From Pirellulaceae bacterium (GTDB lineage Bacteria; Planctomycetota; Planctomycetia; Pirellulales; Pirellulaceae): a stretch of DNA of 33,956 nucleotides. The stretch spans positions 84,675 to 118,630 of the forward strand of contig JAKVCA010000001.1 of assembly GCA_022448315.1 (NCBI GenBank), read 5' to 3'. The notes beneath the pieces were generated by a model, which saw only the letters and a program-made list of their open reading frames with translations, did no database searches and was not told where the DNA came from. Positions 2,204-3,547 of the stretch are shown here, one piece after another. Numbering within the stretch: position 1 is the first letter of the stretch; each line of letters starts with the position of its first letter. A program made the translations under genes and the position numbers.

Positions 2204-3547
2204 TCAGGTCGCAAGTCCAAATTTAAGCTCACGGATTCTTTTTTCAATTCCCTTTAGAATCTCATAGTCGCTGGGATGAGGAGAATCGAATGCAGTACGC
2301 AGGGAAATGGGAACATCGTCCATTCGATATGCTGTTCCAGGAACGTTGATCCCATAAGTCGCCACACTGAAGGCAACGGCCGCACCACGCGTCGTCGGCG
2401 TTTCTTTAGGGTCGAGCGCGATGTAGGGTATGTTTGCCAGATGATTCCGTGCCGGCTGACTGAAGTTTGCTGCCGGATCACTGGCGATGATCATTGCCGC
2501 GTCCGCTTCACCACGTGCCAAAATATCAGACGCCGTGTATTCACCGGGATTGAATCGGGGATAACCACGCCCAAGGTTCACCCCAAAAGGGTACCCGGTC
2601 CGCCAAGTCACCACATTATCCGCTCCCGTGACATTGCCATGACCGCGATTCGGCTTACAAACAAAACGCGTATAGCGGTTCATGTCTCTTGTCAGAGCCA
2701 ATAGTGCTTCGCTGTTTGCGTGTTTTCCCCTCGTCATCGTCAGGCCCATGCCGAAAAAGATCACGCCGAAACGCGCAGCCTTCATCCGAGACATCAAATC
2801 GGTCCACACCTCCAAAGGTTGCCCGGTATCATGCTGGACCTGTTCTGGATCCAGCTCAATGCCTTGGGCCAGAGCACGCAGCACCCATAAGGCTTCAAAG
2901 TCCTTTCGGGGTTGAATCTGGATGAACAGATCCGCCGCTTTTGCGGACTTCGTTTTTCGCACATCAACGATGACGCATGTGCGATCCTTGCGACCGTTGG
3001 GGACAAACATCCCTTTAGGCATCAAGCTGTAACGGGTGAAGTGGCGTGGATGACTCTCCGCCGGGTTCGAACCCCAAAAAACGATCAAGTCGCCCCGATT
3101 CCGAACTTCGCCAAGAGAACATGTCACTTCGCCCACACCCTGAAAGGCCATCCCTGAGGGCCCATGACAGACACTGGTAGTCGTATCAATGTTGCTGCCT
3201 GCCCAATCGGCAATCGATACGGCAACTCGCTGGGATTCGACCGTCGTATCACTTAAGCCGTAAATCAGAGGGTAACGCGAGCGAGCGAGAATCTGTGCTG
3301 CTCGCTCAATGCCTTCATCCACTGACGCGGGCTTTCCTTCAATCAAACAACTGGGTCGATTCTCAATTTCATGGTTGAGAAACCATGCCGTACCAAGCAC
3401 GCAGGCCTTTTTTGCCTTAGTAATGTGCTGACCTTCAACGTGCAGTTCAATGTCGTCGCAAACACAACCACAGAACGTGCAGGTGGCGTCCTTGACGATC
3501 TTCAATTCGGAGGAAGCATCATTTTTGGAGGTAGATTCAGTCGCCAT
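2204..3547 (-). CDS. fhcB: Formylmethanofuran dehydrogenase subunit B-like protein (FhcB/FwdB)
   Basis: This 447-residue protein is similar to the metal/pterin-binding B subunit of formylmethanofuran dehydrogenase. In bacteria the related FhcABCD formyltransferase/hydrolase complex releases formate from formyl-tetrahydromethanopterin during C1 oxidation. Visible marks are an N-terminal cysteine cluster CTFCGCVCDD (Cys23, 26, 28, 30) with Cys49 nearby, the usual place for an Fe-S cluster, and SVCHGPSG with Cys127, near where the Mo/W ligand Cys sits in archaeal FwdB. The molybdopterin-oxidoreductase-like body follows (FWGSNPAESHPRH, IASDPAANF). The start at 3547 (MATEST) is chosen because homology begins about 20 residues later; an open frame continues to 3844 but reads as non-conserved sequence, and no strong ribosome site marks either. 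H4MPT genes are known in planctomycetes, but no fhcA, C, D or mch is adjacent here. Confidence 0.9.
   Translation of the reverse strand: MATESTSKNDASSELKIVKDATCTFCGCVCDDIELHVEGQHITKAKKACVLGTAWFLNHEIENRPSCLIEGKPASVDEGIERAAQILARSRYPLIYGLSDTTVESQRVAVSIADWAGSNIDTTTSVCHGPSGMAFQGVGEVTCSLGEVRNRGDLIVFWGSNPAESHPRHFTRYSLMPKGMFVPNGRKDRTCVIVDVRKTKSAKAADLFIQIQPRKDFEALWVLRALAQGIELDPEQVQHDTGQPLEVWTDLMSRMKAARFGVIFFGMGLTMTRGKHANSEALLALTRDMNRYTRFVCKPNRGHGNVTGADNVVTWRTGYPFGVNLGRGYPRFNPGEYTASDILARGEADAAMIIASDPAANFSQPARNHLANIPYIALDPKETPTTRGAAVAFSVATYGINVPGTAYRMDDVPISLRTAFDSPHPSDYEILKGIEKRIRELKFGLAT

Follow-up and report, generated by a model that had tools for sequence, protein, structure and literature searches.

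A planctomycete fwdB gene that probably encodes the catalytic subunit of a tungsten- or molybdenum-dependent formylmethanofuran dehydrogenase

In the usual account, archaeal formylmethanofuran dehydrogenase, a redox enzyme with tungsten or molybdenum, is separate from the bacterial hydrolase complex, which has no such cofactor (PMC10100899; statements from the papers cited here refer to excerpts of them). In the archaeal enzyme the metal, Mo or W, is bound through bis-PGD and through a cysteine of the B subunit that can be replaced by selenocysteine; the A subunit belongs to the amidohydrolases, has a binuclear metal site, and either attaches formate to methanofuran or releases it (PMC11656701). 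FwdABD is counted as the catalytic subcomplex in PMC7325909. The FhcB subunit of the hydrolase complex is described as a cofactor-free scaffold (PMC10100899, Table 1).

Besides archaeal Fwd, two bacterial cases are already known. Planctomycete P2 from Porphyra carries a selenocysteine (Sec) form of FmdB in an fmdD-B-A-C operon (Kim et al. 2016, PMC4807772) and, according to the same paper, holds Sec and Cys forms together; glycine forms are reported there in three planctomycetes. The excerpted section of that paper on FmdB makes no mention of a redox/hydrolase contrast, of aldehyde:ferredoxin oxidoreductase (AOR) or of single A and C genes. The second case is a Fwd-like fwdDBA-ftr-fwdC operon in Hakuba actinobacteria, whose B subunit has an N-terminal cluster and a catalytic cysteine, Cys118, named as such in PMC7325909. 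A survey places 149 bacterial representatives under FwdB (PMC10100899), PMC7331816 speaks of bacterial FwdB being absent, and fwdD is stated not to be present in Planctomycetes in PMC5020050.

The gene described here lies in a stretch of 33,956 nucleotides (the window; contig 1, 84675-118630) of a Pirellulaceae genome (G000) that comprises 5.03 Mb in 126 contigs and is 97% complete. Its features are as follows.

2204..3547, minus strand: fwdB (fhcB-like) coding sequence of 447 amino acids, with ATG at 3547, stop codon at 2204-2206 and an intact reading frame
3401..3481, minus strand: codons of five N-terminal cysteines of the [4Fe-4S] type (Cys23, 26, 28, 30 and 49), with codon positions counted from the start ATG
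3158..3169, minus strand: codons of Cys127-His128-Gly129-Pro130, the W/Mo ligand stretch (SVCHGPSG), with Cys127 equivalent to Cys118 of 5t5i_B by alignment
2633..2647, minus strand: codons of Arg301-Gly-His-Gly-Asn305, an active-site-like RGHxN stretch, with Arg301 equivalent to Arg288 of 5t5i_B by alignment

Several relatives align from residue 1, which fits the ATG at 3547 as the start. The protein scored 495.7 bits against TIGR03129 (E 8e-149, curated cut-off 327.8), although this cut-off is also passed by group-C copies (see below) and does not separate the types of B subunit. Its best solved relatives were FwdB chains, 9sfi_Q (4.8e-118) and 5t5i_B (1.9e-116); the latter value and the TIGR03129 score exclude a chance match. 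The FhcB chain 6s6y_B, which we take to come from the Methylorubrum formyltransferase/hydrolase complex, was the sixth-ranked solved chain and, by match score, a distant homologue (5.3e-18 over 361 amino acids). Counted on the pairwise alignment, Cys127, His128 and Arg301 fall on residues 118, 119 and 288 of 5t5i_B, presumably its catalytic positions. The original prediction had read Cys23, 26, 28, 30, 49 and 127 in this gene, and all lie at exactly those residues; the archaeal alignment proposed along with it put Cys127 on residue 118 of 5t5i_B, with the RGHxN stretch kept. A structure model built from a 12-row alignment was poor (mean pLDDT 58.8), and none of the evidence rests on it. A contig from another assembly (L073, PBMS01000038.1) was 99.3% identical over 9547 bases, with two differences in fwdB, both silent. 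This record is titled 'Euryarchaeota archaeon isolate SP207' and is probably mislabelled, the remaining named kin being planctomycetes.

On sequence evidence, we put at roughly 0.8 the probability that the product of the window gene is not a cofactor-free FhcB scaffold but the catalytic B subunit of a true Fwd-type formylmethanofuran dehydrogenase with a W- or Mo-bis-pterin cofactor, and that this subunit is joined by FwdD, FwdA and FwdC in an enzyme that most likely runs oxidatively. The archaeal FwdB/FmdB proteins compared (5t5i_B, 9sfi_Q, 8rja_B, 9sw6_J and 7bkb_H) match the window protein in length, in the N-terminal cysteines, in HGP directly after a Cys or Sec ligand, and in the RGHxN stretch. 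Separate FwdD, FwdA and FwdC are common to archaeal Fwd and the window genome, but the window gene is bacterial, its genes are unlinked, and a second B copy without RGHxN is found in the same genome. The Hakuba operon is Fwd-like and bacterial, with the N-terminal cluster and ligand cysteine also seen in the window protein; it belongs to another phylum, two H4MPT synthesis genes were not observed there, and a second B copy is not mentioned in the excerpt of PMC7325909. FhcB of the hydrolase complex is described as cofactor-free (PMC10100899, Table 1), whereas the ligand and RGHxN stretches of the window gene are intact.

A TIGR03129 search covered 392 genomes of this phylum, and 311 of them gave some match. 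Most low-scoring matches were long frames, taken as large molybdopterin enzymes, and the B family was counted only above 130 bits. This left 45 genomes, first sorted into 17 window-type and 28 other. The B sequence was read in 13 of these 28 and later also in G079, which carries the RGHGN stretch and is an 18th window-type genome; 14 of the final 27 were typed by score alone, as were the second copies in G257, G087, G315 and G365. The 34 distinct B proteins read fall into four groups.

Group A: cysteine ligand, 8 genomes, the window's included
Group B: selenocysteine ligand, 9 genomes
Group C: 12 copies with a variable ligand (Cys in 6, Gly in 5, Ser in 1)
Group D: 5 copies in which a gap of four residues spans the ligand stretch

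All five N-terminal cysteines occur in every one of the 34 planctomycete B proteins read, including 17/17 of the other types and the five that lack the ligand stretch. The suggestion that they set the window protein apart did not hold, and we rejected them as a discriminating feature. Nor does the ligand cysteine alone prove anything, since Cys127 is found in 6 of the 12 group-C copies. His303 and Asn305 of the RGHxN stretch are present in 17/17 proteins of groups A and B, as in archaeal FwdB, versus 0/17 of groups C and D. The original prediction had named two kinds of counter-evidence, cysteines kept in hydrolase-type proteins and pterin-binding residues lost here. The first was found in part, with the Fe-S cysteines in 17/17 other-type copies and Cys127 in half of group C; loss of RGHxN was found in the other types and not here.

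A tree placed the five archaeal FwdB and the 17 window-type proteins on one side and the 17 other planctomycete B proteins on the other, with support of 100/100; its root is unknown and two archaeal rows are long branches. The second B copy of the window's own genome falls on the other-type side of this split. The five archaeal FwdB share 87 invariant columns; window-type proteins keep 65-71 of these, group C 51-60 and group D 38-41. In a tree without archaea, one group-C row (L050) adjoined groups A and B (88/86), and it did not when archaea were added. L050 is the second B copy of G307; it keeps CHGP and has a long branch (0.98 and 1.03), and the FwdA of that genome is of the Sec clade only. 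By analogy with FhcB as described in the excerpt of PMC10100899, a group-C copy may be a hydrolase scaffold.

The group-B relatives bear on the nature of the ligand position. Each of the nine genes has one in-frame UGA, always at the codon of Cys127 (SHTSL-U-HGPTE). In 9/9, a SECIS-like 7-bp hairpin with loop AGUU starts 18 nt past the UGA, and it pairs in 63/63 cells, versus 29-57% with the 3' side slid. Among the nine genes all variation in the hairpin was one-sided, without any double compensatory change. Column shuffles reached the same covariation score, and covariation was dropped as support for the hairpin. These Sec-type relatives and P2 belong to the same family and share the D-B-A-C order, the glycine forms reported in PMC4807772 agree with group C, and the window copy differs from P2 FmdB in having Cys in place of Sec. 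For tRNA-Sec, only scores above 65 bits were counted, because weak matches occurred in all 14 control genomes (5 over the model cut-off); G061 (50.6 bits) and G369 (48.2 bits) pass that cut-off. Above 65 bits, tRNA-Sec was found in 8/9 Sec-type genomes (all but G343, an assembly 62% complete), in 3/8 Cys-type genomes including the window's own, and in 0/3 others tested. The tRNA-Sec of the window genome (contig 72, L174:7315-7410, anticodon tca), also called as tRNA-Sec by ARAGORN, is present although its FwdB has cysteine.

FwdD completes the pterin site. A FwdD profile gave 18 strong matches in the 392 genomes (at least 158 bits; the next 38 bits), in the 17 genomes of groups A and B and in G281. 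FwdD is present in 17/18 genomes with window-type FwdB versus 0/27 with other B types only (Fisher p 9e-13, run on 17/17 versus 0/28 with G079 still among the 28). The contig of G079 starts inside fwdB, so fwdD is out of view there; G281 has fwdD without fwdB, on a contig that ends soon after ftr and fwdD. In the window genome, FwdD is a separate short ORF on contig 34 (L046:10016-10399) that scored 48.4 bits against PF01568 and matched solved FwdD chains (up to 8.7e-16); in the NCBIfam FwdD model it scored 69.4 bits, under that model's cut-off of 175. An FhcB type would be marked by the lack of FwdD in the genome; in the window's own genome FwdD is present. The occurrence of FwdD here contradicts the statement on Planctomycetes in the excerpt of PMC5020050.

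The window gene had originally been called an orphan. Locally this is correct; genome-wide it is not, as the search suggested at the time found fhcA, fhcC, fhcD and mch on other contigs. A genome-wide profile search placed fhcA on contig 83 (709.4 bits), fhcC on contig 37 (245.7 bits), two copies of fhcD on contigs 37 and 64 (376.5 and 303.4 bits) and mch on contig 35 (365.7 bits). The second B gene, on contig 49 (407.8 bits), encodes a protein with 45% identity to the window protein in which the RGHxN stretch is absent. The fhcC gene is flanked, on the opposite strand, by a MobA-like gene, which at 133.3 bits falls short of its model's cut-off of 205, and by a MoeA-type fusion gene, which at 665.3 bits exceeds its cut-off of 534. 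Among the genes scanned beside fhcA, both fhcD copies and the second fhcB, no C1 partner was found except a 5-formyltetrahydrofolate cyclo-ligase gene beside the second fhcD. There (contig 64, L012:21-2791), the second fhcD follows amidohydrolase-family and cyclo-ligase genes, as if joining the H4MPT and folate C1 carriers.

Because fwdB in this genome is unlinked to the partners found, operon evidence was taken from relatives. A scan of named contigs confirmed 434 relatives, and among the best 80 of these, that is the closest, the ligand is Cys in 80/80 and fwdD lies within the available flank in 64/80. Neighbours were then counted by ORF clustering, as raw counts, in 94 loci (the best 80 of 434 relatives plus 14 regions): FwdA 41, AOR 30, FwdC 20, MoeA-like 20, MoaD-like carrier 16, Ftr 15, MobA-like 14 and DinB-like 14. 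AOR and MobA were named from examples, FwdA, FwdC and Ftr from members named by other searches, and DinB by eye; both MoaD-like examples fall below curated cut-offs, as do the two MoeA-like examples, apart from a single domain model whose cut-off one of the two passes. Where the fwdB ORF was in the tiling, the strand was that of fwdB for FwdD in 41/41, FwdA in 38/38, Ftr in 14/14, AOR in 22/28 and MobA-like genes in 1/13. Six Sec-type loci carry D, B, A and C together. By genome type (26 genomes), AOR occurs in 8/8 Cys-type, 0/9 Sec-type and 3/9 other genomes. The AOR gene of the window genome is on contig 53 (L173:2359-4251), and in G291 a MoaD-like ORF, AOR and fwdD are consecutive, apart from fwdB. 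In G079 the row fwdB-fwdA-ftr-fwdC is continued directly by two genes (L175:4065-5155), the first for a 7Fe ferredoxin and the second for a ferredoxin-NADP reductase of the FprA type. In 98 stretches scanned with a strict motif, a 7Fe-type ferredoxin was seen in 2, one of them the G079 locus with its ferredoxin/FprA link.

The proposal that the protein binds a metal pterin and an Fe-S cluster and makes the complex a redox enzyme emerges as the best reading of these sequences. The reason first given for it, the cysteines, is weak; the case lies in the RGHxN stretch, selenocysteine at the ligand in nine relatives, FwdD and the grouping with archaea. The cofactor would be loaded into FwdB and the FwdD of contig 34, which together would form the pterin-binding redox unit. 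Assembled with single-copy FwdA, of the amidohydrolase type, and FwdC, this unit would make up a core coupling formyl-methanofuran hydrolysis to formate oxidation, with electrons leaving through [4Fe-4S]. Both mch and ftr are present in the genome and one relative, G079, shows the FprA link, which speaks for the oxidative direction; formyl-H4MPT would most likely be converted through formyl-methanofuran and formate to CO2, with low-potential electrons passed to a ferredoxin as the probable acceptor.

The same redox enzyme might instead run reductively, making formyl-methanofuran from CO2 and reduced ferredoxin as a C1 supply, as in methanogens. Archaeal relatives do so, and the AOR neighbours in 30 of the 94 loci (best 80 of 434 relatives plus 14 regions) could supply reduced ferredoxin. 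Several indirect points make this unlikely: mch and fhcD are in the genome, as expected for formaldehyde oxidation, and FprA downstream in one relative, G079, fits oxidation with NADP+. Judging from its kin, we take the window organism to be an aerobe. In an aerobe a reaction at -0.53 V, the potential given for it in the excerpt of PMC11656701, would be hard to drive.

Another reading would make the FwdB/FwdD pair a free-standing formate dehydrogenase, apart from FwdA and FwdC. FwdBD resembles formate dehydrogenase, fwdD and fwdB are the only named genes within the available flank in 11 loci, and both genes are unlinked to A and C in the window genome. Relatives nevertheless speak for a joint complex and render this reading quite improbable, with fwdA near fwdB in 41 and fwdC in 20 of the 94 loci, fwdA and fwdB sharing a strand in all 38 cases that could be scored, the six Sec-type loci holding all of D, B, A and C, and each of the 26 genomes searched keeping a single A (split in two in G148) and a single C. 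That the window protein is an FhcB-type scaffold without a metal pterin is very improbable: FhcB is stated to lack Mo/W-bisPGD and to serve as a scaffold (Wells 2023, PMC10100899), and group-C copies do hold the N-terminal cysteines and, in 6/12, Cys127, but His303 and Asn305 (17/17 versus 0/17), the archaeal grouping, FwdD in 17/18 window-type genomes and selenocysteine at the ligand of nine relatives, a costly residue of no use in a scaffold, argue against it.

A Fwd-type dehydrogenase in this bacterium would share its cell with a second B protein. Eight genomes (G000, G291, G257, G087, G315, G365, G307 and G266) hold a group A or B copy together with a further B-family copy. Over the cut-off, FwdA is single in 25/26 genomes (it is in two pieces in G148) and FwdC in 26/26. 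G291 and G307 are single-contig genomes with two B genes each, yet they have one FwdA and one FwdC. In a tree of 25 FwdA (G148 left out), the six genomes with a Cys-type and a further B are intermixed with nine that lack window-type B (5 changes; as low in 216/500 shuffles), and a separate clade (100/100) unites the FwdA of seven Sec-type genomes, among them G307. The FwdA of G266 lies outside the Sec clade and not beside the Sec fwdB, which ends at a contig end, so that G266 may have a second FwdA missing from the assembly. A second fhcD over the cut-off was found in 10/26 genomes; the idea that this extra FhcD (Ftr) specifically serves the second B was rejected, as G257, G365, G315, G266 and G307 each combine two B genes with a single D.

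Copy number and phylogeny lead us to infer that a single A/C core may serve both B types. The presence of an apparently redox-type FwdB and a hydrolase-type B in the window's own bacterium suggests two exchangeable forms of one enzyme. More tentatively, and with somewhat less than even odds, the one FwdA/FwdC core could accept two B modules: a redox FwdB with FwdD (Cys or Sec, W or Mo), taking the formyl group to CO2 with electrons to ferredoxin, and a hydrolase FhcB stopping at formate. The cell would swap B for energy capture versus plain detoxification, and the same circuit might take in tungsten enzymes, AOR together with a MoaD-like carrier. In the open-licence literature, we found no account of one A/C core with two B types, of the FwdD co-occurrence or of the AOR link.

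Both B types around an apparent single A/C core would place the two enzyme forms side by side in one phylum, and the origin of the hydrolase form would become testable through subunit swapping. These data would also imply that one-carbon oxidation in planctomycetes involves tungsten or molybdenum and, among some of the relatives, selenium as well.
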